Positions 10,477-45,318 of a stretch of 64,000 bases of DNA are shown piece by piece; within the stretch, counting starts at the first letter, position 1; the number at the start of each line of letters is the position of its first letter. This DNA is from a virus. The notes beneath the pieces are model-generated. The model had not been told where the DNA came from, made no database searches, and worked only from the letters and a program-made list of their open reading frames with translations. The position numbers were made by a program, and so were the translations under genes. The DNA is taken from the IMG/VR virus record IMGVR_UViG_3300025154_000005, positions 1 through 64,000 of that record, one strand, 5' to 3'.

Positions 10477-11512
10477 TATGTAATTGTTGTTTAATTACTA
10501 ATTTTAATTCTTTTTTACCAAATGTTTTAGCAAAATCACTTGGATCCTTTTCTGTATTATCTGGAAGCATTATATGAGGGATATTATGTAACTGAGAATA
10601 TTTCTCAGCAAACATCTTTCCCCAATTTTGTTCCTTTGTAAAATCATTATCATAAAATAATACAATATTCTTAAATCTATTTTTTACATCTTCAAAGATA
10701 TGCGGTTGTACAAAAGTATTTTCATTTGAGGGAGCAATAGCATAAAATCCATTATGCTTTAATATTACTATATCTTTCATAGAAGATGTTATAAACAACA
10801 ACTCTCCTTTATCAGGAAGTTGTTCATATCCTTGTGTAATAAGTTTATTTGAATTTGTATAAAATTCACTACCGGTCTTCTTAGGAAGATAAATCTTTCT
10901 TAAGAATATTCCTAGATGCCAATGATAATCGTAATCAAATGCAATATCATTCACGACATACATTTTATTAGCTTTCTCATTGTTTATCCAGAAATGACTG
11001 ATAGGAAATATTTTAAATAAATTTAAACTGTCTACAACATCTTTATTTGGTATATCATACTGACTCCAAAATTGTACATGTCGTTTAGTCAAGTCTATCT
11101 TTCTTACTTTAATTTCAGTTAATACAGAATCCTTATTTTCATATGTAACATCCGACTTTAATACAACATCATTTACAACTGGTGCAATTTGTGTTGTGGA
11201 CTTAAATCCAAGTCCCAGATTAAAATCTGAATTTATTTTATTTAAGCATTGGTCAAATTTGAGACTATATTTTTGCATTATAAACTGATAAATGTTATAT
11301 GGTTTACTTTGCATAGGATTACCAAAATCGTTATACCATAATCTACCATTGTGGCGTGTAATTATTGCAGATGGATTGTTATCCTTTCTTAAGTCTGCCT
11401 TAAATTTTACATCTTCTTTATCAAAATTATCACAATAGTATTTGAATAATGTATAGTCATCCTTACGTTTCTCTATTTCTTCCGCTGTTAGATTAGGTCG
11501 TACAAAAAACAT
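10460..11512 (-). CDS. DnaG-type primase with TOPRIM domain
   Basis: 350 aa. The C-terminal part shows a TOPRIM fold: LLFITSSMKDIVIL near 238-251, with Ser where DnaG usually has Glu, and the metal site FYDND at 286-290, then KDPSDFAK. The N-terminus resembles the DnaG zinc-binding region in order (KADLRKDNNPSAII, LWYNDFG) but lacks the cysteines. It makes RNA primers for the replication fork together with the DnaB helicase at 16486-17631. Confidence 0.8.
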   Translation of the reverse strand: MFFVRPNLTAEEIEKRKDDYTLFKYYCDNFDKEDVKFKADLRKDNNPSAIITRHNGRLWYNDFGNPMQSKPYNIYQFIMQKYSLKFDQCLNKINSDFNLGLGFKSTTQIAPVVNDVVLKSDVTYENKDSVLTEIKVRKIDLTKRHVQFWSQYDIPNKDVVDSLNLFKIFPISHFWINNEKANKMYVVNDIAFDYDYHWHLGIFLRKIYLPKKTGSEFYTNSNKLITQGYEQLPDKGELLFITSSMKDIVILKHNGFYAIAPSNENTFVQPHIFEDVKNRFKNIVLFYDNDFTKEQNWGKMFAEKYSQLHNIPHIMLPDNTEKDPSDFAKTFGKKELKLVIKQQLHNVGIY

Positions 11513-11524
11513 ATGATTTGGATT

Positions 11525-11559
11525 TAAAAACAGGTAGGTATTAACTGGTAATACCTACC
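11525..11559 (-). terminator. Rho-independent terminator (minus strand)
   Basis: Perfect 11-bp stem GGTAGGTATTA/TAATACCTACC (11533-11543 with 11549-11559), 5-nt loop, then TTTTT on the minus strand. It ends or attenuates the transcript from the 255-aa gene before the primase gene. Confidence 0.8.
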
Positions 11560-11567
11560 AATTAATA

Positions 11568-12335
11568 CTAAAACTTTAGTTTCTCTGGTGCTGAAGTGTC
11601 AACATCTGATGATGGTAATACAGCTTTCCACTCTTTAAACTCTAAAGAATATGAATCTTTTAATGGGTAACCTGAATTTGCCTGATCATTAACATGTTTT
11701 GTCCAATATGTAAATGATGTGTTGGTAGCTCTGTCAAAATATCTATTGTAAATATTCTGATAGTTTTTACCATCATCCATATGCTTAACTGTTAACATCA
11801 CGCGAACCTTATTATTAACAAATGCTTTGAATACATCTTTTAATTCTGTAAAGTTTCCTTTAACTAAAGCACCAGAATTATTTAATCTAGCTTCATCACC
11901 TGGTTTAATATTTAACCATGCAATTAAGAAATTAGTTAAATCTTCTTCACCTTTTAAACAAGGTCTTGCAGTTTCACTTTTAAACCAATCTTTGTAGTCA
12001 GGATTAGAAGGATCTATATAGGTAGTTTTACCAGTAATATCAATCATTTGATGTTTGCCACTAGTTTTACCTATCATTGCACCTTCTTCTAAAAAGAAAG
12101 CTATCTTTTGTAATCTGTCGATTTGATCAACTTTTACATAGAAATCTATTCTTACTTTATTTATTCCTGCCTCATCTATTGATACATATACCGGTTCCTT
12201 TTCAGTTTTCAAACCTAACTTATTAAGTTCTTCCATTGTAGGACAGATTGCTTTAACTTGTGCTAAAACTAATCCTGTATACTGTTTAACATCTGTTACT
12301 ACCGCTGTACTACTGTTGTTACCTTTAATTGCCAT
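11568..12335 (-). CDS. Putative DNA-binding replication/recombination accessory protein, 255 aa
   Basis: No motif recognised with certainty. It sits between the TOPRIM primase and the Sak4-like ATPase, where phages often place their single-strand DNA-binding protein. The long beta-rich N-terminal part (VYVSIDEAG, VRIDFYVKV) could be an OB-like domain. The C-terminus lacks the acidic tip of typical SSBs. A strong terminator directly follows it, which fits an abundantly made protein. Confidence 0.4.
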   Translation of the reverse strand: MAIKGNNSSTAVVTDVKQYTGLVLAQVKAICPTMEELNKLGLKTEKEPVYVSIDEAGINKVRIDFYVKVDQIDRLQKIAFFLEEGAMIGKTSGKHQMIDITGKTTYIDPSNPDYKDWFKSETARPCLKGEEDLTNFLIAWLNIKPGDEARLNNSGALVKGNFTELKDVFKAFVNNKVRVMLTVKHMDDGKNYQNIYNRYFDRATNTSFTYWTKHVNDQANSGYPLKDSYSLEFKEWKAVLPSSDVDTSAPEKLKF

Positions 12336-12399
12336 AAATTGTTTGTTTTAAATTGTAAATTTATTAATTATTATTTATTTTTTCAAGAATATTCATCAA

Positions 12400-12930
12400 T
12401 TAAATTTCATTAGCTGTATCGGTTATATCACCACTACCGCTATTACAGCCATCATTTCCTACTACACCATTCAACACAAATCTTTTCAAAGTTGCAACTG
12501 GAAAATCTTGTATATTTTCATCAGTGCGGTCAAATTCCAAACCAAATAACACATCCTCGCTATTGTCTAATTCAAGAGTTTTAGCAATAAATAAGTAAGT
12601 ATTTCTATTAGAGAATACTCCTTGCATACTTACACCGTATGCACTTTTGGGATCGATAGATCCTATAATACTGGTGGTATTAGCTAGTAATATTCCACCT
12701 TCTTTAGGAAACGAGAATGATACACATTTAAGATCATCTCCATTTTCCTTAGCAACATCCAACAACTCACAAGCTCTTTTTGTTAATTTAAACTTGTAAG
12801 TTCCACCTTTAGTTTCAGGTGCCTTTTGCATGATCAATAATGCTAAATCAGCATATGGATCAACTTTTTCAACTTTTCCTTTTTTAGGAATTCCAAACTC
12901 AATACTTCTTCCTGTTAACATTTTATTCAA
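12400..12930 (-). CDS. Hypothetical protein, 176 aa
   Basis: Not recognised. Soluble alpha/beta protein ending in a Gly/Asn/Asp-rich tail (NDGCNSGSGDITDTANEI). It is in the recombination-replication cluster, 1 bp after a 67-aa gene. Confidence 0.65.
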   Translation of the reverse strand: MNKMLTGRSIEFGIPKKGKVEKVDPYADLALLIMQKAPETKGGTYKFKLTKRACELLDVAKENGDDLKCVSFSFPKEGGILLANTTSIIGSIDPKSAYGVSMQGVFSNRNTYLFIAKTLELDNSEDVLFGLEFDRTDENIQDFPVATLKRFVLNGVVGNDGCNSGSGDITDTANEI

Positions 12931-13132: not shown

Positions 13133-13835
13133 AATATTTACGGATTGTGTCATCTACCAATTTCAGTGAATTCGGTATTAGAAAACTATCAAACATTCCT
13201 ATTGGACTCTTACCAGAACTTCTATTCTTTTGAGTCTCAAATTTGAATGTATTATCACCACCTTGTCCTAATTCTACTTCTGTATGTAGAACAATCGGTA
13301 CTTTAGTTTCTAAATGTATCTTCTCCAATTTCTTACCATTAGTAACTAGATGACGTAATTCATTACCATCTTGTTGAGTAGTTAATACAGTATGTCCAAA
13401 CATATAGATAACTAAGTCTGACCTCATAGAGTTTGCTTTAACCACTAACCTGTAATAATCTTTAGCTAAATCACTCCATTTGTCAAACGTCATTTTCTTT
13501 GTCTCAAGCATCTCCTTATCATTCATTGAACCATTAATTGTATCAATTATGACACATTTAATTTTAGTTCCTTTATTAATAGCCTCCAAATAGATTTCTA
13601 TTAATTCAGCAGTCAATGGTTTATCATAAGTTGATGTGAACAAGTTTTCTCCTTCTATCCAACCAAGTTTAGTATAAGGAAATGGTAAATCCTTTCCGTC
13701 TGTATTAAATATTACTGTACTATTAGGATCTAATCCTAGATAATTATCAAAGTCCACTTTTCCATTTGGATTAACCACTAATGAAGTTGATTTACCATCT
13801 CCCGATGGTCCTAATAACATACATACTTTTGCCAT
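13122..13835 (-). CDS. Sak4-like RecA-fold ATPase
   Basis: 237 aa. Walker A GPSGDGKST at 9-17, Walker B CVIIDT at 94-99 and a later basic region. The length and layout match the AAA_24/Sak4 group of phage recombinases. These pair with an SSB to promote strand annealing or exchange. The unknown 255-aa protein downstream is the best SSB candidate by position. Confidence 0.72.
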   Translation of the reverse strand: MAKVCMLLGPSGDGKSTSLVVNPNGKVDFDNYLGLDPNSTVIFNTDGKDLPFPYTKLGWIEGENLFTSTYDKPLTAELIEIYLEAINKGTKIKCVIIDTINGSMNDKEMLETKKMTFDKWSDLAKDYYRLVVKANSMRSDLVIYMFGHTVLTTQQDGNELRHLVTNGKKLEKIHLETKVPIVLHTEVELGQGGDNTFKFETQKNRSSGKSPIGMFDSFLIPNSLKLVDDTIRKYYGI

Positions 13836-28162: not shown

Positions 28163-28231
28163 AATAAATAAGCATTATATTCAATTAAATCACTTACAAG
28201 TCTGATTCATAATAGACTTTTATATTGTTGA

Positions 28232-28361
28232 GATCAAGAGCAAGATTCGAACTTGCATTCAACTTTTGGACTGTCAGTTGATTATTATATACTTCCTACC
28301 ACCTTCCTGTCCTGGCTAGATGTACATATATAATAGCGTCTACCAATTCCGCCATCTGATC
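28232..28361 (-). tRNA. tRNA-Leu-like gene with a long anticodon-loop insert
   Basis: 130 nt. Acceptor GATCAGA pairs with ...TTGATC with one bulged base. The D arm GCGGAATTGGTAGACGC is typical of leucine tRNAs; the T arm is GCAAG-TTCGAAT-CTTGC. A class II-type variable hairpin TCAAC...GTTGA precedes it. The anticodon stem (ATTAT/ATAAT, extendable to 9 bp) closes a 41-nt loop, about 34 nt too long. The anticodon cannot be read without knowing how the insert is removed. A decayed tRNA is the alternative. Confidence 0.5.
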
Positions 28362-28373
28362 ATTATTATAAAA

Positions 28374-28531
28374 CAACTAATACAATTACTTCTACTACCA
28401 TTACTATACTCTGGTAACTCGAAAGTATATCTATAACTAGTATATATTTCATAGATATTATAGGTCTCTTTCTGTGTATATAGTAGCTACTGATCAACAC
28501 TCCAAGAGAAATGGCAAATTGTAATTAGTTG
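28374..28531. ncRNA. Structured element A, 158 nt, nested helices
   Basis: Ends pair over ~14 bp with one bulge (28374-28387 with 28517-28531). Inside, further helices nest on the minus strand: TGCCATT/AATGGTA, CTC(T)TGG/CCAGAG, then GAAAG/CTTTC around TATCTAT/ATAGATA and a GTGT/ACAC hairpin. The nesting order is hard to get by chance. No coding frame. Strand of expression unknown. Confidence 0.5.
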
Positions 28532-28551
28532 TTTATATTGTTTATAAATTA

Positions 28552-28620
28552 ATAAGTGAAATTGGTAGCTTTGGCATCTCAATCCACTGTAAGGAAGTAA
28601 AGACTACCAAAATCACTTAT
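28552..28620. ncRNA. Structured element B, 69 nt
   Basis: ATAAGTG/CACTTAT end helix continues, after a 3-nt internal loop, as TTGGTAG/CTACCAA, giving a 17-position rod with a ~35-nt loop. Confidence 0.45.
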
Positions 28621-28631
28621 ATTATCAAAAT

Positions 28632-28772
28632 AGTTTGTAATAGTTTATAAAAGAAACATCTTACTTATTGAAGACTTTTAAATCTATACCACTTCTGGTT
28701 GCACTATACTCCTATTCCAACTGTGCTTCAATGGATTTTTAATGTTGGATTTGCATTGCTGCATTACAAACT
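28632..28772. ncRNA. Structured element C, 141 nt
   Basis: Perfect 10-bp end helix AGTTTGTAAT/ATTACAAACT. Inside lies ATTGAAG/CTTCAAT enclosing CAC..GTTG/CAAC..GTG. Confidence 0.45.
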
Positions 28773-28800
28773 TCCAAATATATAATAATCTGACTTGTAT

Positions 28801-28868
28801 ATAATACTACTATTTCTACTCTACTTTACACCAGATAGTATCCTTTAGTTTGGTTTAGATAGTATTAT
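28801..28868. ncRNA. Structured element D, 68 nt
   Basis: Perfect 9-bp end helix ATAATACTA/TAGTATTAT around a ~50-nt interior with short secondary pairings. Confidence 0.4.
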
Positions 28869-28873
28869 AACTG

Positions 28874-28935
28874 GTTTGATAATATTTTAATATTTTAAAA
28901 AGATAGTTTTTAAATTATCCCCAGAACTATCAAAC
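28874..28935. ncRNA. Structured element E, 62 nt, with terminator-like hairpin
   Basis: 8-b end helix GTTTGATA/TATCAAAC. Within it, on the minus strand, GATAGTT...AACTATC is followed by TTTTT, so it could also stop minus-strand transcripts that contain the tRNA at 29052-29125. Confidence 0.45.
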
Positions 28936-29051
28936 TGTGCTAACATACGATTTAGGCATTCAGTGGCAATACATAGGTATTGACTTTTGCATCTTCGATT
29001 CCTTGCGGGACTTATGTCCAAGTTCCAAATACATTTCAGATTTTGGATTAG

Positions 29052-29125
29052 AATAGGCAACCAGAATCGAACTGGTACGAATGTTATTTTTAACATCCAC
29101 AGGAAACCGTCCCTGTTATACCTAT
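29052..29125 (-). tRNA. tRNA-like gene with an unreadable anticodon loop
   Basis: 74 nt. Acceptor ATAGGTA/TGCCTAT (one G-U), D arm ACAGG-GACGGTTT-CCTGT and T arm ACCAG-TTCGATT-CTGGT are all intact; no CCA is encoded. The anticodon arm folds either as GATGT/ACATT with an 8-nt loop TAAAAATA or as ATGTT/AACAT with a 6-nt loop. Neither has the conserved U33, so no amino acid can be assigned. Confidence 0.65.
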
Positions 29126-29141
29126 TAGTGGTTATTTATAT

Positions 29142-29447
29142 TTAATCTAATAATTGAACAAGTAATATAAATCCAAATACTATTATTGCGAATATTAAGA
29201 TTATTAATATTCCATTATGTACTATTACATAATTACCTTTATCAATATTTGTTACCTTGTATTCAACTGTGTTATCTTCATTGAAAACATATAATTTGTC
29301 TTCATCAATAGAGATAGCTACAGTATCTTTTGGTAACTGTTGTAAATATACAGTAGTTTTCTTTTCAGGATCCTTTATCTCTTCAATGTTGTTTGTACAA
29401 CTTGCAAATATTACAAGTGTAATCAAAAATAAGAATAATTTTTTCAT
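29142..29447 (-). CDS. Lipoprotein with C-terminal TM segment, 101 aa
   Basis: Signal peptide KKLFLFLITLVIFASC with lipobox Cys at residue 16. The middle is beta-rich, and a second hydrophobic helix (GILIILIFAIIVFGFILLVQLL) ends the protein. It would be anchored at the cell envelope; a superinfection-exclusion type role is possible but unproven. Confidence 0.7.
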   Translation of the reverse strand: MKKLFLFLITLVIFASCTNNIEEIKDPEKKTTVYLQQLPKDTVAISIDEDKLYVFNEDNTVEYKVTNIDKGNYVIVHNGILIILIFAIIVFGFILLVQLLD

Positions 29448-29478
29448 TGTTATTTGATTTAGATTAGATTAATAATAA

Positions 29479-29588
29479 AATAAAGGCTCTAATGATTCCT
29501 TTTTTGTTTACTCATATACTATGTAGTATAATATGTTTTAGTGTCTGGATGTTCTCATCACTATGTTATTACTTTAAGAGCCTTTATT
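29479..29588. ncRNA. Structured element F, 110 nt
   Basis: Perfect 12-bp end helix AATAAAGGCTCT/AGAGCCTTTATT. Inside are ATACTA-TG-TAGTAT and GATG-TTCT-CATC hairpins. No coding frame. It directly abuts element G. Confidence 0.5.
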
Positions 29589-29589
29589 A

Positions 29590-29681
29590 CGTAATTATGG
29601 CACTTCTGCTTTTACTTATTACGTACATTTAAACGTATATATTTACCTATACTGTAAGTTTCGTGTTTAAGTATAATTACG
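29590..29681. ncRNA. Structured element G, 92 nt
   Basis: 9-bp end helix CGTAATTAT/ATAATTACG, with an inner CAC/GTG, ACTTA/TAAGT and a TACGT/ACGTA hairpin. Starts one base after element F. Confidence 0.45.
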
Positions 29682-29695
29682 ATTAGTATTTTAAT

Positions 29696-29878
29696 TCAAT
29701 TCAGTTCAACTATTACTACTTTCTTTTTCATAATAATTTTAGAGTTTGCTTTATTACAAGCATCAACAAAGTATTTTTCTACCATGTCAAGAGTGTCATT
29801 AACTATACTTTTCCTATAGTCAAACTTAATAGTTTTATCATGGTCTTTTATTATCACATCTTTGGTTATTATACACAT
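29696..29878 (-). CDS. Hypothetical protein, 60 aa
   Basis: Not recognised. Small basic protein ending KIIMKKKVVIVELN. Overlaps the stop of the 61-aa membrane protein gene by 10 bp. Confidence 0.5.
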   Translation of the reverse strand: MCIITKDVIIKDHDKTIKFDYRKSIVNDTLDMVEKYFVDACNKANSKIIMKKKVVIVELN

Positions 29879-30054
29879 ATTTTTACAATTAATCGGATTA
29901 GTATGTATATTAATCCTAAATCAATAGTGATTAATAATGAGGATTCCATTAAATAATACCACGTGAATGTATAACCGTGTTTTATATATTTAATGATTAA
30001 TGATGTAAAGATTACAATAACCATCAATAAAAAGAACGCAATAAAATGTAACAT
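29869..30054 (-). CDS. Small membrane protein, 61 aa
   Basis: Two hydrophobic helices: HFIAFFLLMVIVIFTSLII and LLITIDLGLIYILIRLIV. No family recognised. Confidence 0.55.
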   Translation of the reverse strand: MLHFIAFFLLMVIVIFTSLIIKYIKHGYTFTWYYLMESSLLITIDLGLIYILIRLIVKICV

Positions 30055-30057
30055 AAT

Positions 30058-30192
30058 TTAATTATTAGGGTTATTACTAAGAAACTCTGGATTCTTAATA
30101 CACTTAGTTAAACTGCAACCAGAACAGTTATTAATATCTTTACAAAAGGATAAAACTATTCTATCCAATTGATGCTTTAAAAATTTTCTCAT
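30058..30192 (-). CDS. Small Cys-rich protein, 44 aa
   Basis: Frame from ATG 30190-30192: MRKFLKHQLDRIVLSFC, then NNCSGCSLTKCIKNPEFLS. Four cysteines, three of them in CSGCSLTKC, suggest a small metal-binding protein. Placed 3 bp from the membrane protein gene. Confidence 0.5.
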   Translation of the reverse strand: MRKFLKHQLDRIVLSFCKDINNCSGCSLTKCIKNPEFLSNNPNN

Positions 30193-30240
30193 TAATTATT
30201 AATTTGTTATATGTAGTGCTTAAAAATAATTGTCAAATTG

Positions 30241-30272
30241 ATTGATTATGTTATTTTTTTTACGTAACTTTG
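30241..30272 (+). promoter_or_regulatory. Bacteroidetes-type promoter, plus strand (candidate)
   Basis: ATTG (30241-30244), 20-nt spacer, TAACTTTG (30265-30272), which fits TAnnTTTG. It points right, against the minus-strand small genes, and no plus-strand protein gene follows. TACGTAACTT also pairs with AAGTTAC-TA-CGTA just downstream, so a hairpin is an alternative reading. Confidence 0.4.
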
Positions 30273-30351
30273 CGTATACTTAAGTTACTACGTAGCCACT
30301 GTCATACATAGAGGAGGTTGTTTTTCTTTTGGTTACTTTTCTTAAACTAAA

Positions 30352-30546
30352 TTATTCATCAAAACTATATTCTCTTATAATTACAATTTTAGATTCCGTT
30401 TTTGTATCTATTTCATAACAATTATTTGTATCCCAAACATAACTACATGTTTTGGCTAATTTGATAGCTTTGTCTTTAGTTTCAGCATATACTATTGCTG
30501 CCCCTAAATCATAATTTGTGCTATATGCAAATATAAATGCTCTCAT
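30352..30546 (-). CDS. Hypothetical protein, 64 aa
   Basis: Short alpha/beta protein: MRAFIFAYSTNYDLGAAIVYAETKDKAIKLAK. This sequence-to-helix pattern is seen in small phage proteins of unknown role. Confidence 0.6.
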   Translation of the reverse strand: MRAFIFAYSTNYDLGAAIVYAETKDKAIKLAKTCSYVWDTNNCYEIDTKTESKIVIIREYSFDE

Positions 30547-30576
30547 ATATTTATTTATTAAGTTTAAATTAATTGT

Positions 30577-30618
30577 AAAGGACTCAGTTGAATAGATTCT
30601 TTATCATCTGAGTCCTTT
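30577..30618. terminator. Hairpin terminator after the 92-aa gene
   Basis: Perfect 11-bp stem AAAGGACTCAG/CTGAGTCCTTT around a 20-nt loop. Ends with A/T on both sides so could work in either direction; on the minus strand it follows the 30627-30905 gene. Confidence 0.6.
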
Positions 30619-30626
30619 TAGCATCT

Positions 30627-30905
30627 TTATTTGGTAGGTGCTTTACCTTTTTCAATCATCTTATCTAATCCTTTATTGATTAAATCTTCAGGAGATTCAT
30701 CAAGTTTTGGATCAATATCTTCATCACTACCTTTTTCAAGTTCATTGCTTTTTTCTGATATCTTTTGCATAGCAGTAGTCATAGAATTTATTGCAATGGT
30801 TCTAATTTCATCCAATGTAAAAGATTCTTTACCTGTCTTTTTTAAATCTATCATTAATTGACTAATCAATGCAAGATTTGCTAAAGAAAACATTATTTCC
30901 ATCAT
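30627..30905 (-). CDS. Hypothetical acidic protein, 92 aa
   Basis: Not recognised. N-terminal hydrophobic helix (MEIMFSLANLALISQLM), then an amphipathic helix and an acidic/Lys tail (KGSDEDIDPKLDESPEDL). Followed by a terminator hairpin. Confidence 0.6.
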   Translation of the reverse strand: MMEIMFSLANLALISQLMIDLKKTGKESFTLDEIRTIAINSMTTAMQKISEKSNELEKGSDEDIDPKLDESPEDLINKGLDKMIEKGKAPTK

Positions 30906-30923
30906 AATTTTAAGAGTTAATTG

Positions 30924-31079
30924 TTAATTAATATAGTTCAATTCTTCATTGGTTTGAACTGTGACCATTTTTAATAATTCAGTATATTTTAGATGATTAT
31001 CTAATTGAAGGTTTGCTTCAACATAATCAAATAATTGTATTTGTTTAAGTGATCTACAGATTCTAATAAATGTTTTCAT
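30924..31079 (-). CDS. Hypothetical protein, 51 aa
   Basis: Frame from ATG 31077-31079: MKTFIRICRSLKQIQLFDYV, helical rest to TAA. Unknown; supported by close spacing (18 bp) to the next minus-strand gene. Confidence 0.5.
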   Translation of the reverse strand: MKTFIRICRSLKQIQLFDYVEANLQLDNHLKYTELLKMVTVQTNEELNYIN

Positions 31080-31133
31080 GTTGGTATAGTTTAGTTAATA
31101 TCTCTCAACGTATTAATAGTTGAGTCGCACAAT

Positions 31134-31192
31134 TAGTTTAATAATAAGATACGAACACTCCTATCAGGTGCATCAGCTTCATTATTAAACTA
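31134..31192. ncRNA. Structured element H, 59 nt
   Basis: Perfect 12-bp end helix TAGTTTAATAAT/ATTATTAAACTA, with an inner CCT-ATC-AGG hairpin. Confidence 0.45.
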
Positions 31193-31218
31193 TACGATAG
31201 CATATTTCTATACTAAAG

Positions 31219-31264
31219 GCTAACATATCTAATACAATTATCTCTAGTTAGATCAAGTGTTAGC
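31219..31264. ncRNA. Structured element I, 46 nt
   Basis: GCTAACA/TGTTAGC end helix continuing as ATCTAA/TTAGAT: two stacked helices of 7 and 6 bp around a 15-nt loop. Confidence 0.45.
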
Positions 31265-31268
31265 TGCC

Positions 31269-31316
31269 AATACAATCATCTCAATGCTTTGATATGCATG
31301 TACAAGACATTGTATT
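31269..31316. ncRNA. Structured element J, 48 nt
   Basis: 8-bp end helix AATACAAT/ATTGTATT. The loop has TGCATGTACA, sharing the ATGTACA core with the inserts of both long tRNA-like genes. Confidence 0.4.
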
Positions 31317-31332
31317 ATATTATCACTATATC

Positions 31333-31448
31333 AATCAGCGCATCTCTGATTAATTGATTTAAGTGTAATTATTAATAGTCCAATCTACTCTATTGAGATA
31401 TATTTCGACTGGACTATGTTATAGTATCATTATACTCCTATAATGATA
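31333..31448. ncRNA. Three consecutive hairpins (K, L, M)
   Basis: K: AATCAG-CGCATCT-CTGATT (31333-31351). L: AGTCCA/TGGACT (31377-31415). M: TATCATTAT-ACTCCT-ATAATGATA (31425-31448), a perfect 9-bp stem. Confidence 0.4.
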
Positions 31449-31574
31449 ATTATATTGTATTAATGCTATATTATTACAAATTTAAAGGGATTAGAGTACT
31501 CTTAAAAACATGAAATTACTAATATTAATTAACCCTAATTAACTAAAAACCTATTTTATCCCTAATCCCTTTTG

Positions 31575-31679
31575 AATGTCTAGTTGGGCTCGAACCAACG
31601 ACCTAATTCCGAACTTAGGATTTAGTATGTACATACTTATTCCGTCAAAAAATTTGCTCTACCTCTGAGCTATAGACAT
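31575..31679 (-). tRNA. tRNA gene with a ~33-nt insert in the anticodon loop
   Basis: 105 nt. All outer parts are canonical: acceptor ATGTCTA/TAGACAT, D arm GCTC-AGAGGTA-GAGC, variable loop AGGTC, T arm GTTGG-TTCGAGC-CCAAC; no CCA is encoded. The anticodon stem AATTT/GAATT (one G-U) closes a 40-nt loop instead of 7. The insert contains a hairpin centred on GTATGTACATAC (GGAATAAGTAT/ATACTAAATCC with two mismatches). Identity cannot be assigned until the junctions are known. Confidence 0.7.
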
Positions 31680-31692
31680 TACCATAAAATAA

Positions 31693-31780
31693 CCTGACAC
31701 TATTTCAACTTCACTAACTAACAATGGTGTGTTTAATTAAAAATGAGTAACTTCGAGATGTATTCAACACTAGTGTCAGG
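31693..31780. ncRNA. Structured element Q, 88 nt
   Basis: Perfect 10-bp end helix CCTGACACTA/TAGTGTCAGG filling the gap between the tRNA-like gene and the lipoprotein stop. May also end lipoprotein transcripts. Confidence 0.45.
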
Positions 31781-31782
31781 TA

Positions 31783-32079
31783 TTATTTTATTGTATCTCC
31801 AATTTGTCTTGAAGCTCCTATATTATTAGCAAATGTACTCATATTACCATATGTAGCAATTATATTATTACTATCTTTTATAGTAATATTATAAAGTCCC
31901 ATATTTTTTTCCTTCCCTATCAATATAACAGGTGAAGTTAATGAATTAATATGAGCTACAGTATAATGTGTATAATCACTGTAATATACACCATTAACTG
32001 TTCTACGATTAATGTCTTCTTGAGATGGATCACAAGATATGGCTGTTATTAATATTATTAGCGTTAATAATTTTTTCAT
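31783..32079 (-). CDS. Lipoprotein, 98 aa
   Basis: Signal peptide MKKLLTLIILITAISC with lipobox Cys at residue 16; the mature part is beta-rich. Second phage lipoprotein in this stretch; envelope location is expected, function unknown. Confidence 0.7.
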   Translation of the reverse strand: MKKLLTLIILITAISCDPSQEDINRRTVNGVYYSDYTHYTVAHINSLTSPVILIGKEKNMGLYNITIKDSNNIIATYGNMSTFANNIGASRQIGDTIK

Positions 32080-32109
32080 AAGTTTATATTTTAATTTACT
32101 ATATAAATG

Positions 32110-32155
32110 TAATGGTAGTGGCTAAGCTCTTAACCGACTTTCACGGATACCATTA
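32110..32155. ncRNA. Structured element O1, 46 nt
   Basis: 8-bp end helix TAATGGTA/TACCATTA with an inner GGTTAA-GAGC-TTAGCC hairpin on the minus strand. Confidence 0.45.
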
Positions 32156-32161
32156 GGTTAA

Positions 32162-32242
32162 ACATCAACAGTATCAAATTACAGACACTCCAATCGTGTT
32201 ATCTGTAACAATTATTGAATACCAGGGTGATACTGTTGATGT
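32162..32242. ncRNA. Structured element O2, 81 nt, 15-bp perfect end helix
   Basis: Perfect 15-bp inverted repeat (32162-32176 with 32228-32242). Inside, the minus strand has TTACAG/CTGTAA, a 3-nt bulge and ACAC-GATTGGA-GTGT with a 7-nt loop. Confidence 0.55.
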
Positions 32243-32253
32243 AATGTTTAATA

Positions 32254-32544
32254 TTATTTCTTAATTTTTAATTGATCTACAGAGATATTGAATTTATCTG
32301 CTATTTCTTCAAGGGTTAGTTCAATTGAAGATTGAGGTTCTTGAGCGTATTTAAAAAAACCCCCAGACCCCGCCCCCGGAATATTTTCAATATCTTTTGA
32401 TGTTTTGATATTTGAAGAATAAGTAAAGTAAGGGTAGTAGAATTTAGGATTATGCGCCCAAACAACTCTTAATTGTCCAGGATTAGTTTTAGTAATAGGG
32501 TAATCAGATACCATCATTACTTTTGGAAATGTTAATGTTGACAT
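32254..32544 (-). CDS. Conserved phage protein, 96 aa
   Basis: The N-terminal FPKVMMVSDYPIT and C-terminal SIELTLEEIADKFNISVDQLKIKK occur in a widespread family of small phage proteins of unknown function. The C-terminal helix pair looks like a helix-turn-helix-type unit. The middle Gly/Pro-rich run is unusual. Confidence 0.65.
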   Translation of the reverse strand: MSTLTFPKVMMVSDYPITKTNPGQLRVVWAHNPKFYYPYFTYSSNIKTSKDIENIPGAGSGGFFKYAQEPQSSIELTLEEIADKFNISVDQLKIKK

Positions 32545-32555
32545 AATATTAGTTA

Positions 32556-32765
32556 TTAAAGGTTTGATTCATTATTTAACATATATTTAAATCCTATATA
32601 TAACGCTATTATTATTAAAAAGAAATATATAGTTGGAAATAATAGTATTGCTACATAAGGATGATTAAACCATTTATTCTTATTCATATGAATGAGTGGT
32701 TTATAAGAAATTATCATTAATAATATGTAAATGACAATTAATAAAAATACAATTAGTGGTGTCAT
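32556..32765 (-). CDS. Small membrane protein, 69 aa
   Basis: Two hydrophobic helices: PLIVFLLIVIYILLMIISY and VAILLFPTIYFFLIIIALYIGF. No family recognised. Confidence 0.6.
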   Translation of the reverse strand: MTPLIVFLLIVIYILLMIISYKPLIHMNKNKWFNHPYVAILLFPTIYFFLIIIALYIGFKYMLNNESNL

Positions 32766-32831
32766 ATAATTATGTTTTAGTTATAATATAAATTCGGGGT
32801 AAATTCAATAATGTTTATGAGCAAGGTTATT

Positions 32832-32865
32832 GTGTGGTGTTGGGTAATGTCACCAACTATCACAC
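32832..32865. ncRNA. Hairpin P1
   Basis: GTGTG and TTGG pair with CCAA and CACAC across a 3/4-nt internal loop. Confidence 0.4.
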
Positions 32866-32918
32866 TCTAAAACTACTATATCTATTGATACTTAGCCAAC
32901 TTCAATGTAGATTGATAA

Positions 32919-32988
32919 CATTCTAACCCTAAACTTCGTAATATCCTCTTAACTACTGCTAAGATTGTTTCTGTATAGAGTTAGGATG
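32919..32988. ncRNA. Structured element P2, 70 nt
   Basis: 13-bp end helix with one mismatch (CATTCTAACCCTA/TAGAGTTAGGATG) and an inner CTTA/TAAG hairpin. Confidence 0.45.
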
Positions 32989-33023
32989 TTTAATATGGTG
33001 AATTGTGTGCCATAATTATTGAC

Positions 33024-38847: not shown

Positions 38848-39390
38848 ATGGCAGAAGCAAGTGTACTAGCTAATTATGAACCTCTAAATAACTTTTGGAA
38901 AATATTTCCATCATTTAGAGCACCTAAGATATACAATGATTTATATGAAGAAGATAAGTCTAAGGGTAAGAAACAATCCAGTGATATAATGTGGGCCCTG
39001 GCATTCATGTTTGATAAGACCGAATACAATCCTTACAAGACATTACAGATGTCAGATAAGATTGAGGTTATCAACGAAGATATCCTGGACAATGCTAAGT
39101 TTGACTGGGAGCCATATAGAAGATTAATAGTCTTTACAGAACTTATATTTATGTCAGAGATTGAGAGAACATATTATGCTTATCTTGAGAAGATGGAACA
39201 AAGGCGTAAACTTATTGAGAACTCTCCTTATAATTTAGCAACTGCAGAAGACTTAGATAAAATTATAAAGAGTACTGATAGCATACGTAAAGAGCTAGAT
39301 AATCTTAAGAAGATTGTTGATCAACAGGAAGCGGACGGTAGAACTAAAGGTGATATAATTGAATCAGCTAGAGAAAGAAAGTTATTTTAA
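38848..39390 (+). CDS. Putative small terminase subunit
   Basis: 180 aa, mostly helical with a C-terminal coiled coil (DLDKIIKSTDSIRKELDNLKKI). Its place immediately before TerL, with a 1-bp overlap, is that of TerS, and a similar protein precedes TerL in crAss-like phages. No sequence motif proves it. Confidence 0.45.
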   Translation: MAEASVLANYEPLNNFWKIFPSFRAPKIYNDLYEEDKSKGKKQSSDIMWALAFMFDKTEYNPYKTLQMSDKIEVINEDILDNAKFDWEPYRRLIVFTELIFMSEIERTYYAYLEKMEQRRKLIENSPYNLATAEDLDKIIKSTDSIRKELDNLKKIVDQQEADGRTKGDIIESARERKLF

Positions 39391-42300
39391 TGGAGTTCAT
39401 AAGAATAAACAATAGGAAGAATTTCCTACTCGAAGAAGTCCCTACAATTAATCCTCACTCACGTAAATATCTGAGTTGGTGGAAGGAACAAACTATGCGT
39501 TGTATTGAGGGATTCTGGTCAATAGATGATGAGAATGTGAAAGTAAATGTAATGTTAGAACATCCAGAATATCCAGATAAATCTTTTGCATGGAGATGGT
39601 TAACGCCAACAGCATATTTCTATTGTAACTATGGAACAATACTTGCTAATCCAATAGGAGCAACTTCCGGAGCTAAGATTCCTATGAGACCATCACTTGA
39701 TGATATTGAATGGGAGTTCGGGTATAACTGGATGGAAGCTAGAGGATTTAGTGGATTTGAAGATGATCCAGATTTCTCATGTAATATACATCTTCTTAAT
39801 AAGGATCTTACAGATAAGGATTTACTAAGAAAATGTGAAAATGAGAATGGAGAAATTATAGACTATCTACAAAAGAATTATTTTAATTCCAGTGGTAAAC
39901 GTAAACAGTTTGTTCCTTGCCGACAATATGTTAGACAATTATTTTCAAAGAATATGGGTCGACCAGTATATGCTAATCCGCCTGAAAACCTTATGATACT
40001 AGCCACCCGCGACGGAGGGAAAGCAATAGCTTGTGATTCAGGTAGTTACGTTTGGACAACTAATGGAAGACTTCAGCTAAAAGATATTAAGGTAAATGAT
40101 AAAATATATGGAGCTGATGGGGAACTTACAAATGTTACAGGAATTTTTCATCAAGATCCTACTAATCTATTTAGAGTTACTTTTATGGATGGTAGATACT
40201 TAGATGTGCATCCAGATCATTTATGGGAAGTTAAAAAATTTGAGAAAAAAGGATTAATTATAGATACAAAAACTATGTATGAAAAATTTATGTATCAAGG
40301 AAATGACAAAGGAGGAAATACATATATTTATTCTGTTAAACAAAATAAACCTATAAATTATCCAGAACAAGATTTACCAATTCATCCATATATTCTAGGA
40401 GCAATGTTAGGAGATGGTACTATGACAACAAATACTCCTAAAATAGCATGTAATGACCTTGATATATTAGATAAATTTAAAGAATTATTACCAGAATATA
40501 AATTTAATTATGATAAACACAGTAATAATAATTATAATATAGTTTGGAAGAAAAGAGCATGTATAAATAATAAAAGTCCTTTTGTTAATGCTTTACGTGA
40601 TAATAATTTAGTGGTAAAGGGAAATAATAAATATATTCCAGATATTTATAAAACATCTTCTGTTGAACAACGATTGGAATTAATAAAAGGATTGATGGAT
40701 ACAGATGGATCTGCAAATAAAGATGGGGCATGTGAATTTACAAATAAGAGTAAAAAATTAATATATGATTTAGCAGAAGTATTCAGAAGTTTAGGGATTA
40801 AATGTCAGATAGGAATTGATAATAGAACAGGATGCGAGGGTAATATAAAAGGACATAAATATATAAGAGGAATATATTATAGATTATATATAAATACAAC
40901 TATTCCTATTTTTCATTTAAAACGTAAATTAGATAAACAAATTAATAAGAAGTATAGATCAGCGCATGACTATACATCAATTATTAATATAGAGAAGTTA
41001 AGGAAAAAAAGGAAAAGTTTATGTATAACTATTGATAATTTAGATCATTGTTTTGTTACGGATGATTATATAGTTACACACAATTCATATTTAACAGCCA
41101 ATCAAGTAATAGCGCATGAATTAATATTTGATGGTATTCGTAGATATAGTCCTGATAATGTTAATAATCCACCATTAGCTGAAATTGTAGTTGGTGCTAG
41201 TATATCAGATAAGTCTAAAGATTTATTGAATAAGGTATCTCTTACAATGAATAATCTTAAAGGCGCGTGGAAGAAAGGTACAAATGAAGAAATTCCTTCA
41301 CCATTCTTTAAACACATGTCTGGTAGTATAACCCCTAATAAAGATTGGGAGCATAAGTATAAAAAGAAAATTGGATCGGATTGGAAAGATATAGGTACCG
41401 GTTCTAAAATTAAGCATAGAATATTTACTACTGAGAATCCTGAGGCTGCAGCCGGAGGTAGACCAGGTACTATTGTAATAGAGGAAGTTGGATTAGTAAG
41501 CAATATTCTTACTATTCACCAATCTAATGATGCCGCGCAAAACAACTCCGGAGAAAAATTTGGTAGTTCGGTATACATTGGTACTGCCGGTAATATGGAA
41601 AAGATTGTTGAAGCCGAAATGATATTCAATGATCCTAAAGGTTATAACTTCTTGGCATTCGAGAATCAAGAAGAGAATGACAGAGGTACGGAGATATGTT
41701 GGTTTATACCAGCTACTCATATGGCTAGGAAGTTTAAAGATGCTAATGGTAATACTATGGTTAAAGAAGCTACTGAACATTTCCTTAAACGTAGAGCTCT
41801 TAAAGAGAAGTCAGCATCTAAACGCGGTCTTGAAGGAGAAATGATGAACTATCCTTTGAAACCATCTGAAATGTTTCTTAATAAAACTAATAATGCTTTT
41901 CCAGTTGCTGATATCAAAGTAAGAATAAGAGATTTAATGAGTACGCTTAATGATGAACTTAAACTTACTCTTAAAGGTAGAATGAATCTTAGTGAAGATG
42001 GTGGAGTTAGCTTTGAGAAATTAAACATAATACCAATTCGCGAATTTCCTCTTAAGAAAGAGGATATTAATATTGAGGGTTGTGTAGAAATATTTGAACT
42101 TCCTATGAAAGATGGTGAAGGTAAAGTTCCATCAGGACTATATATTGCAGCACTTGACCCTGTGGATGATGATGGTAATGATGACAATAGTAGATCATTA
42201 CAATCAACATTTATAATGAATACTCTTACGGATAGAGTGGTTGCCGAATATTCAGGTAGAACTAAGTTTGCTAAAGAATATTATGAACAGGTTAGAAGAA

Positions 42301-42809
42301 TGCTCATATTCTATAATGCTACAATACTTTATGAGAATCAGAAGAAAGGATTCTTTACATACTTCGATAATAAGAATTGTTTATACTTATTGGAAGATAC
42401 TCCACCAGCTCTTAGAGATGTTGATATACAAAAAGGTACTATTATAGGAAATAAAGGTAAAGGTATATATGCAACGGATACTATCAACTATTGGGGTAGA
42501 CAACAACTATTACCTAACTATCTTGAATTACCGGCATACGGTAATAATGATATTATGAATCTTCAAACATTCAAATCTCTTGCAGGACTTAAGGAAATGA
42601 TATATTATAATGGTAAACTTAATACAGATAGAATATCATCATTAGGTTTATTAATGATTCATAGAGAATTAAAACTTAAGTTTAAAACAGATACTAAGAA
42701 GAAGATTCATAAGATAACATCTGATCCTTTCTTTAATAGACATCTAACCAAGGGTATGCGAAAATATGAAGAAGTTAGAAAACAATTAATGGAGAATGAC
42801 CAAACTTAA
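39390..42809 (+). CDS. terL: Terminase large subunit (TerL), intein-containing
   Basis: 1139 aa as encoded, 785 aa after removal of a 354-aa intein (residues 212-565). The ATPase Walker A is split after GGK: ATRDGGK (205-211) joins SYLTANQ after splicing, restoring RDGGKSYL. Walker B is TIVIEEVG. The nuclease domain starts at AALDPVDDDGNDD. TerL docks on the portal, pumps DNA into the prohead and cuts it. Length and layout fit crAss-like TerL proteins. Confidence 0.92.
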   Translation: MEFIRINNRKNFLLEEVPTINPHSRKYLSWWKEQTMRCIEGFWSIDDENVKVNVMLEHPEYPDKSFAWRWLTPTAYFYCNYGTILANPIGATSGAKIPMRPSLDDIEWEFGYNWMEARGFSGFEDDPDFSCNIHLLNKDLTDKDLLRKCENENGEIIDYLQKNYFNSSGKRKQFVPCRQYVRQLFSKNMGRPVYANPPENLMILATRDGGKAIACDSGSYVWTTNGRLQLKDIKVNDKIYGADGELTNVTGIFHQDPTNLFRVTFMDGRYLDVHPDHLWEVKKFEKKGLIIDTKTMYEKFMYQGNDKGGNTYIYSVKQNKPINYPEQDLPIHPYILGAMLGDGTMTTNTPKIACNDLDILDKFKELLPEYKFNYDKHSNNNYNIVWKKRACINNKSPFVNALRDNNLVVKGNNKYIPDIYKTSSVEQRLELIKGLMDTDGSANKDGACEFTNKSKKLIYDLAEVFRSLGIKCQIGIDNRTGCEGNIKGHKYIRGIYYRLYINTTIPIFHLKRKLDKQINKKYRSAHDYTSIINIEKLRKKRKSLCITIDNLDHCFVTDDYIVTHNSYLTANQVIAHELIFDGIRRYSPDNVNNPPLAEIVVGASISDKSKDLLNKVSLTMNNLKGAWKKGTNEEIPSPFFKHMSGSITPNKDWEHKYKKKIGSDWKDIGTGSKIKHRIFTTENPEAAAGGRPGTIVIEEVGLVSNILTIHQSNDAAQNNSGEKFGSSVYIGTAGNMEKIVEAEMIFNDPKGYNFLAFENQEENDRGTEICWFIPATHMARKFKDANGNTMVKEATEHFLKRRALKEKSASKRGLEGEMMNYPLKPSEMFLNKTNNAFPVADIKVRIRDLMSTLNDELKLTLKGRMNLSEDGGVSFEKLNIIPIREFPLKKEDINIEGCVEIFELPMKDGEGKVPSGLYIAALDPVDDDGNDDNSRSLQSTFIMNTLTDRVVAEYSGRTKFAKEYYEQVRRMLIFYNATILYENQKKGFFTYFDNKNCLYLLEDTPPALRDVDIQKGTIIGNKGKGIYATDTINYWGRQQLLPNYLELPAYGNNDIMNLQTFKSLAGLKEMIYYNGKLNTDRISSLGLLMIHRELKLKFKTDTKKKIHKITSDPFFNRHLTKGMRKYEEVRKQLMENDQT
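40023..41084 (+). mobile_element. Intein with LAGLIDADG homing endonuclease, inserted in TerL P-loop
   Basis: Codons 212-565 of TerL. The N-terminal splice block is AIACDSGSYV...TNGRLQLKDIKVNDKIYG, which begins with Ala rather than Cys/Ser if the exteins join as GGK-S. The C-terminal block ends CFVTDDYIVTHN followed by Ser +1, with penultimate His and Asn. Endonuclease motifs are YILGAMLGDGTM and LIKGLMDTDGS. The insertion point at the nucleotide-binding site means only spliced TerL can work. Confidence 0.9.
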
Positions 42810-42878: not shown

Positions 42879-45248
42879 ATGATATTATCAATGAATGCAG
42901 GAGTACCACAGATATTCCCACCTCAAAAGAAATCTGATGCAGAGAAGACTACTAAGTTTTTAAAGTCTTGCGTAGATTCAGGAGTAGAATTAGTTAATTG
43001 GGAACTAAGTTCAGGATTTAGGAAAAGTAAATCTGAAATGGTTCGCTTATATAATATTGTAAATGGAGTGGTAGATGCTGAAGATAAGAAGATGATTACT
43101 AATCCTCTTAACCTACAAGGATATGAATTTCCTGGAACAGCACAGACCTATCCACTTATAACACCATTGTTATCAGTACTTACAGGTGAAGAAAGAAATA
43201 GAGTACATTTCTTTGATGTAAGTGTTGTAAATCATGATGCTATCTCCGAGAAACAAGCATTTCTTAAACAACAGATTGATGGAATAGTTATGCAGGGAAT
43301 ACAAGATACTTCTGCATCACAAGAGGAACTTGAAGCTAAGATTAAGAAGTTTGGAATGTTTGCTAAATTTGAATATCGCGATATGCGAGAACGTATGGCA
43401 CATCAGACTCTTACATACTTAAAGAAACATCTTGATTTAGACTTCCAATTCAGTCGCGGATTTGAAGACCAATTAATTGTTGGTGAACAAATATATGTAA
43501 GTGATATTGTAGGTGGAGAACCTATATGCAGAAAAGGAAATGGACTAAACTTTACATTTGTAAGATCCAATGATTCAGTATATCCTGAAGATTCAGATAT
43601 GATTATAGAAGATGGGTATTTATCCCTCGGTAAAATAATAGATGAATATTATGATGTACTTAAAGATAGCGATATAAAGAAACTTGAAAGTGGTAGTGGA
43701 CTAAATAATAGTTTATCAAATTCAATGTTCTCTCATCAAAATGTACAACCAGATTTTAATCTTGACGACCTAATTGAACAACGTGGTGGACTAGGATTAA
43801 TACTTGGTGCTCCATCTGGAATGGCAAGTTATGGATTATCAGGATCATTTGATCAATATGGACGAATACGCCGTACACGTGTACTATGGAAATCAATGAG
43901 AAAAATTGGATTCTTAACATATGTAGATGAGAATGAAGAAACTCAGAAGATAGTTGTTCCAGAACAGTATGTTCCTAATAAGGAAAGAAATGAAGTTGTA
44001 GAATGGAAATGGATCAATGAATGGTGGGAAGGTACTAGAATTGCAAATGACATTTATGTTAAGATGCAACCAAGACCTATTCAATTTAGAGAGATGGTTA
44101 ATATGGCTAAATGTGGTCCAGGTATTATAGGTATTGTAAATAATATAAATAGTTCTAAAGTAACATCCTTTGTTTCTTCTTTGAAACCAATTCAATATCT
44201 ATATGATGAATTCGTATACAGATTAGAAAGAAACTTTATGACATCTTATGGTGCAATAGCCAGGTTAGACGTATCACAAATTCCTGATGGTTGGGATATG
44301 GACAAATGGTTGTATTATGCAACTACGTTTAAGTGGGCTATACAAGATCCATTTAAAGAAGGTAATGAAGGACAAGCACGTGGTAAACTTGCCGGTACAA
44401 TGAACCAACCTTCCAACGTATTTAATCTTGACCAGGGTAATATGATTCAGCAGAATATTGAGATGTTGAACTACCTTGAGAATAGGGCTAATGATATTGC
44501 GGGTATTACACCTCAACGTAAAGGTTCTACTTCTAGTAGAGAAACTATGGGTGGAATAGAACGTTCAGTTGTACAATCATCCCATCGTACTGAAAAACAT
44601 TTTAGTCTCCACGATCATGTTAAGATGCGCGTATATAAAGCATTACTTGAAACAGCTAAAGTTGCATGGAGAGAAGAGAAATTTAAACGTTCATTCTTGA
44701 TGGATGATTTAACTCAAACTGTACTAGATTTTGATGGACAAGTATTTAATGAAGCTGAATATGGTGTAATGGTTAACAATTCTAAAGAAGATACTAAATT
44801 AAAGAATCTACTTGAAAGTTCAACTAATATTTTATTACAGAATGGAATAAACTTCTCTACAATTCTTGGTATAATGCGTACTGATAACCTTAGTACAATG
44901 CAACGTAAGATTGAACAACTTGAAGAAGAATCTGCACAACGTCAACAAGAACTTGAGCAAGCTACTATTCAACAGAAAGAAGCAGATAGTCAACGAAGAT
45001 TTGAATCTGAGCAAGCTGATAGAGATTTAAAGGATCGTATGAATATTCGAGATAACACAACTAAGATTCTATTAGATAAAGAACCTGATAATACAGCAAA
45101 TGATGCTAAGTCAGCTGCTGATATGCAGAAACATATAGATAAGATGGCATTAGATGAAAAGAAATTATCAGAGTCTATTAGGACAAATAAAGCTAATGAA
45201 CAATTAAAAAAGGAAAGTATTAATAAACCTAGACCAGCTTCAAAGTAA
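42879..45248 (+). CDS. Portal protein
   Basis: 789 aa. Long portal-type protein with the crAss-like N-terminal signature TYPLITPLLSVLTGEE (residues ~87-102) and a Gln/Glu-rich coiled C-terminal tail (EQLEEESAQRQQELEQ). Forms the dodecameric ring at one capsid vertex through which TerL pumps DNA. The Met at codon 5 (42891) is an alternative start. Located directly after TerL, as in other crAss-like phages. Confidence 0.88.
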   Translation: MILSMNAGVPQIFPPQKKSDAEKTTKFLKSCVDSGVELVNWELSSGFRKSKSEMVRLYNIVNGVVDAEDKKMITNPLNLQGYEFPGTAQTYPLITPLLSVLTGEERNRVHFFDVSVVNHDAISEKQAFLKQQIDGIVMQGIQDTSASQEELEAKIKKFGMFAKFEYRDMRERMAHQTLTYLKKHLDLDFQFSRGFEDQLIVGEQIYVSDIVGGEPICRKGNGLNFTFVRSNDSVYPEDSDMIIEDGYLSLGKIIDEYYDVLKDSDIKKLESGSGLNNSLSNSMFSHQNVQPDFNLDDLIEQRGGLGLILGAPSGMASYGLSGSFDQYGRIRRTRVLWKSMRKIGFLTYVDENEETQKIVVPEQYVPNKERNEVVEWKWINEWWEGTRIANDIYVKMQPRPIQFREMVNMAKCGPGIIGIVNNINSSKVTSFVSSLKPIQYLYDEFVYRLERNFMTSYGAIARLDVSQIPDGWDMDKWLYYATTFKWAIQDPFKEGNEGQARGKLAGTMNQPSNVFNLDQGNMIQQNIEMLNYLENRANDIAGITPQRKGSTSSRETMGGIERSVVQSSHRTEKHFSLHDHVKMRVYKALLETAKVAWREEKFKRSFLMDDLTQTVLDFDGQVFNEAEYGVMVNNSKEDTKLKNLLESSTNILLQNGINFSTILGIMRTDNLSTMQRKIEQLEEESAQRQQELEQATIQQKEADSQRRFESEQADRDLKDRMNIRDNTTKILLDKEPDNTANDAKSAADMQKHIDKMALDEKKLSESIRTNKANEQLKKESINKPRPASK

Positions 45249-45286
45249 TATTAAAGCTATACAGGAATTAAAAACTTACCTAATTT

Positions 45287-45318
45287 CTTGGAGTTAATAT
45301 AAAGTAAAATTATTTTTG
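45287..45318 (+). promoter_or_regulatory. Bacteroidetes-type promoter before the scaffold gene
   Basis: CTTG (45287-45290), 20-nt spacer, TATTTTTG (45311-45318). Gives an extra start for scaffold and capsid genes. Confidence 0.65.

Follow-up and report, generated by a model that had tools for sequence, protein, structure and literature searches.

The first 64,000 bases of a 92,303-bp virus record (IMG/VR IMGVR_UViG_3300025154_000005), referred to here as the window, come from a divergent crAss-like phage. Between positions 28,163 and 33,023 they contain what is probably a locus where structured non-coding RNAs encoded by the phage are interspersed with atypical tRNA-like RNAs and tiny genes, the RNAs presumably being stable and small. 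This reading is preferred because long inverted-repeat arms occur in excess, helices are kept in other phages around interiors that are not conserved, two sister families of elements show covariation, and the locus includes RNAs with homology to tRNA.

The excess of inverted repeats was assessed by counting perfect arms that enclose 25–160 nt. With only the non-coding segments shuffled (n = 300), 9 arms of at least 10 bp were observed versus 0.85 expected (shuffle maximum 6), and 12 arms of at least 9 bp versus 3.1 (maximum 11). Across the whole region, 10 arms of at least 10 bp compare with 2.7 in dinucleotide shuffles (maximum 9, n = 200), and 42 of at least 8 bp with 29.5 expected (shuffled maximum 41); pairs of 6–8 bp are at chance level. 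The first-pass annotation of this DNA had described about 16 elements with paired ends, exceeding what AT-rich DNA would give by itself. The long-armed elements are real and stand above that background, but the number was too high: about half of those listed lie within chance, and the paired ends assigned to 31219–31264, 31269–31316, and 32110–32155 have arms of 7–8 bp, which is near chance. Single elements that fold better than shuffled controls, with z of about −4 to −5, are 28552–28620, 28874–28935, 29479–29588, 31134–31192, and 32162–32242. The elements are as follows, with the evidence for some of them in brackets.

28371..28534, minus strand: 11-bp perfect terminal helix, 164 nt (inverted repeat; no homologue found)
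28552..28620, minus strand: element A, hairpin with 17-nt arms (88%) and a hypervariable loop (z −5.4 and homologues); conserved terminal stem ATAAGTGA..TTGGTAG / CTACCAA..TCACTTAT
28621..28883, minus strand: element B domain, closing helix ATTATCAAA (28621–28629) / TTTGATAAT (28875–28883)
28632..28772: element B inner stem, 10 bp (28632–28641 / 28763–28772), within the closing helix
28800..28869, minus strand: 10-bp terminal helix, between B and the closing strand, extra in the window (inverted repeat)
29479..29588, minus strand: 12-bp perfect terminal helix (z −4.0 and inverted repeat)
29590..29681, minus strand: 9-bp terminal helix (inverted repeat; z just −1.7)
31134..31192, minus strand: 12-bp perfect terminal helix, 14 bp with one minus-strand G-U (z −5.3 minus, −3.3 plus)
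31484..31572, minus strand: 11-bp terminal helix, 13 with G-U (missed by the first-pass annotation)
31692..31781, minus strand: 11-bp perfect terminal helix, directly upstream of tRNA T2
32162..32242, minus strand: 15-bp perfect terminal helix, inner helix TTACAGA/TCTGTAA (z −4.7 and inverted repeat)
32919..32988, minus strand: weaker, imperfect terminal helix (z −3.5; no perfect arm of at least 9 bp)

A GGAGTGT motif common to three window elements was considered as a shared feature and rejected, as it was not seen in the elements of the relatives (one stray match, in L097).

Single-protein searches found no relatives of the window phage, and the cluster had no match among phage records when compared directly at the DNA level. 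An alignment of TerL led to 44 related contigs, and a DNA search with the cluster then matched two records (G011 and G015, identical to each other over 8 kb) in the module formed by elements A and B. Pattern scans added a 324-kb contig (G030), which has a terminase of its own; matches in L070, L082, and L084 were discarded as chance matches in coding sequence. The A/B module (28552–28883) recurs in the crAss-like L064 and in the 324-kb phage (L092), with best pieces at E 2e-7 and 2e-9, and the stem of element A is also found at L064 4072–4156 and L092 9388–9470. In three distinct phages the order, read on the plus strand of the window, is hairpin A, ATTATCAAA, hairpin B, and TTTGATAAT. Both arms of the A and B helices are conserved in all three, whereas the loops are no more alike than shuffled loops. 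For B, 57/57 pairs are kept across the three phages, one as a G-U pair on the minus strand, around an interior that is unconserved. These comparisons also change the parsing of one element: 28874–28935 had been proposed as a separate unit, which is probably wrong, as TTTGATAAT pairs with ATTATCAAA at 28621–28629 in 3/3 homologues. In the 324-kb phage, a further stretch (L092 10292–10680) holds three adjacent elements with terminal helices of 10–16 bp and a recurring TATATTTTAAAA-like spacer.

Two sister families of elements, C and D, were characterized in loci of the same kind in the relatives. Element C lies beside A/B in L064 and L092 and is also present in L096, L097, and L098. On the minus strand its fold is cloverleaf-like, with a 10-bp terminal helix P1, a hairpin-bearing P2 (CAGACAG/TTGTCTG), a variable P3, and P4 (CCAC/GTGG), which stacks on P1. 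In a hand alignment, from which the long variable loops were excluded, P1 is paired in 50/50 cells and all 10 pairs show double changes. A MAFFT alignment, which mis-registers one sequence, gives 93.3% paired and 11 pairs with double changes, with 0/500 shuffles as high. A scan of 84,980 genomes with the core pattern of element C gave chance matches only, without the flanking structure. Element D (L064 6601–6740) is conserved between genes in 10 or more named crAss-like phages of the gut (cr6_1, cr10_1, cr53_1, cr60_1, cr109_1, cr113_1, cr114_1, cr115_1, cr118_1, and cr128_1). Its core is fixed and its internal loop invariant, whereas the distal arm differs in length; it is 97.8% paired and its covariation score is above all 500 shuffles. 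The single-stranded cores of both C and D are invariant, and Rfam has no match to element C (in L064, L092, L096, L097, and L098) or element D (in L064). Together, the kept A/B helices and the strong covariation of these two families support the original suggestion of structured non-coding RNA in association with tRNA-like genes. A BLASTP search with a putative chaperonin of cr60_1 established no synteny, and the evidence for a shared location is therefore the strand switch together with L064, where A/B, C, and D all occur.

The direction of the changes within these helices bears on which strand is used. Where helices of B, C, and D contain G-U, it is the minus strand that has it, and the plus strand would have A-C; 12/15 window elements fold better as the minus strand. 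These two observations point to minus-strand RNA and not to a structure of DNA only. The tRNA-like genes share this strand with the elements:

28225..28363, minus strand: T1, tRNA-Leu-like, canonical D arm GCGGAATTGGTAGACGC and T arm GCAAGTTCGAATCTTGC, weak acceptor stem
29053..29125, minus strand: T3, tRNA-like, 7-bp acceptor, D arm, T arm ACCAGTTCGATTCTGGT, non-canonical anticodon arm
31575..31679, minus strand: T2, tRNA, acceptor 7/7, about 37 extra nt in the anticodon arm (Rfam RF00005, 49.6 bits)

The presence of tRNA-like genes in the cluster, reported at the outset, holds in the form of one gene at the Rfam cut-off and two unusual ones. T2 is the sole Rfam match in the window, leaving the other elements uncatalogued; it scores above the cut-off, and by the criterion of a standard 7-nt anticodon loop its anticodon arm is enlarged. 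ARAGORN called no tRNA in the window, and T1 and T3 are also unmatched by Rfam; both have D and T arms but no normal anticodon arm. A strict scan for a T arm plus acceptor found T2 and T3 in the window and nothing in 100 shuffles of the cluster. In T1, a 9-bp helix with a 35-nt loop, together with a hairpin, takes the place of the anticodon and variable region. A homologue in the 324-kb phage, L092 11583–11732 (minus strand), keeps the D and T arms around a different interior, and a T1-like gene pattern had 0 matches in viral contigs. Splicing of the tRNA inserts as introns by RtcB was considered: no RtcB was found in any of the five phage records, though an RNA ligase (PF09414) is encoded in the window's phage (G000 88073–88612, minus strand) and in relative G015 (44860–45288, minus strand). 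Separately, L096 4253–4345 (plus strand) is a sub-threshold Rfam tRNA with a perfect 5-bp anticodon stem and a 30-nt anticodon loop, about 23 nt over normal.

Several results weigh against a locus of structured RNAs. In 100-nt windows the region folds only slightly better than a sample of the rest of the window, although single elements reach z of −4 to −5. The stems of A and B are conserved in sequence and hence show almost no covariation; covariation is strong in C and D of the relatives, while A/B keeps its pairing and hardly varies. For most window elements no homologue was found. Neither sister family could be placed in the window: the core of 28800–28869 resembles element C by eye (CTAAAGGATACTATCTGGTGTAAAG), and it reaches just 6.2 bits (E 2.8) as the best plausible site of the element C model (R1), while the element D model (R2) has no match in the window's phage at E ≤ 1 and gives 10.6 bits (E 0.6) in the window region.

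Other explanations have been weighed against these data. Hairpins acting in cis, which merely cut, insulate, or terminate a polycistronic transcript of tiny genes and enclose unconstrained filler, are a rather unlikely account of the locus. The position of the elements between small same-strand genes would suit such a role, as would the A and B stems, kept while their loops are free. Against it, several elements adjoin without an intervening gene, the single-stranded cores of C and D are invariant, and tRNA-like RNAs sit within the same array. It is very unlikely that the cluster consists of chance hairpins and decaying tRNA remnants in AT-rich DNA. Many of the 6–8 bp pairs are indeed at chance level and two of the three tRNA-like genes have no usable anticodon loop, but chance does not account for the long-arm excess or for a module common to two other phages, and helix conservation in the homologues already disfavours it.

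Elements that work at the level of DNA, as cruciforms, as recombination sites such as attC, or within a replication origin located at the strand switch, are likewise very unlikely, slightly more so than chance. Inverted repeats of 60–160 bp placed end to end, and a cumulative GC skew that has its minimum at the cluster, would be expected of them. Helix changes in B, C, and D are nevertheless one-strand G-U changes, as for RNA, and neither the conserved unpaired cores nor the tRNA homology is explained in this way; for attC the counter-argument is the G-U pairs alone, and attC R/L boxes and integrases were not searched for. Least probable is an array of Ro60-binding Y RNAs, which likewise combine paired ends with an interior that varies and a part resembling tRNA. 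YrlA, with its paired ends and permuted tRNA-like part, is matched in one relative that carries element C (L098; RF02553, E 3.8e-4, 34.9 bits, below the gathering cut-off of 69), beside a TROVE/Ro60 gene. The window, however, has no YrlA match up to E 5, and TROVE (PF05731) is absent from G000, G015, G030, and G031; it is matched in relative G033. The L098 locus is at 11459–12883 and 13162–13284 (minus strand), a TROVE/Ro60 gene with the YrlA Y RNA directly upstream. Further tandem elements there have a common GGTTACTTCG core, and a candidate 'permuted tRNA' in L098 proved to be the Y RNA itself.

Structured RNAs encoded beside phage tRNA genes have precedents. The tRNA cluster of phage T4 includes the stable RNAs C and D, to which the elements had been likened. 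The resemblance is one of place, beside tRNAs, and goes no further; T4 has two such RNAs, whereas many elements are present here. Phages also encode GOLLD and ROOL, large structured RNAs whose function is unknown and which often lie near tRNA islands (PMC12286853). They are single RNAs of about 600–800 nt, and the window has no GOLLD, ROOL, or OLE match in Rfam. Relative L096 has freshwater-1 RNA (RF02979) next to element C (39.3 bits, below the cut-off of 72), and the window does not. This kind of locus thus overlaps catalogued RNAs, namely YrlA and freshwater-1 in relatives. The locus also differs from the tRNA arrays of phages: L010 and L012 have 3–15 ordinary plus-strand tRNAs nearby, compared with one at Rfam level and two odd ones here. 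These arrays (L010 117–1640 and L012 46–286, both plus strand) hold as many as 15 ordinary tRNAs and lie close to where the plus-strand block begins, in relatives whose TerL is at 69%.

The minus-strand replication block has the cluster at its upstream end, beside a strand switch, and plus-strand genes start at 33.6 kb. It comprises about 9 small minus-strand open reading frames and 2.7 kb of non-coding DNA. The window encodes a TerL with 43% identity to that of Cellulophaga phage phi14:2 and a crAss-type portal, and the major capsid protein of the phage has 34% identity to that of cr85_1. Its TerL gene (39390–42809, plus strand) contains an intein at about residues 202–580, which resembles inteins of phage helicases and terminases. 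Among the relatives, the C-terminal part of the annotated TerL of L006 (cr60_1), as translated here under table 11, gave several stops, which may reflect stop-codon recoding or a wrong choice of frame, and a tandem repeat of ACTTGGGATGAACCCCCCATATAATTT lies within a predicted gene of the 324-kb phage (L092 15740–16210).

If the locus does encode structured RNAs, they would be transcribed together with the minus-strand block, fold into closed RNAs, be cut out of the minus-strand transcript in the manner of tRNAs, and accumulate as stable small RNAs. The way A/B, T1, and D combine constant stems with variable interiors suggests a fixed handle joined to a changing functional part. The stems may serve as the handle for processing or protein binding, while the fast-changing interiors and anticodon-less tRNA shapes could act as decoys or inhibitors of host defences that target RNA, and especially tRNA. 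We offer this, tentatively, as the most likely role; the tRNA shapes that lack an anticodon would suit it, as would the RNA ligase of the phage. Something comparable has been proposed for the tRNA-like domain of YrlA, as a competitor of an anticodon nuclease (PMC7790460). A more speculative idea is that a locus devoted to non-coding RNAs is common to Crassvirales and some jumbo phages, an arsenal against host immunity that targets RNA or tRNA, made up of several unrelated families with fixed scaffolds, rapidly replaced interiors, and anticodon-less tRNA mimics.

No report on non-coding RNAs of crAss-like phages was found in the open-access literature, subscription papers being outside the scope. 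These phages are dominant in many human gut viromes, and such RNAs are testable in cultured crAss-like phages that have this kind of locus. Conserved stems around replaced interiors are an unusual evolutionary pattern, which suggests an arms race or cassette exchange. If the reading is true, several RNA families outside Rfam, some of them common to crAss-like phages and the 324-kb phage, would represent a new functional layer in these viruses.

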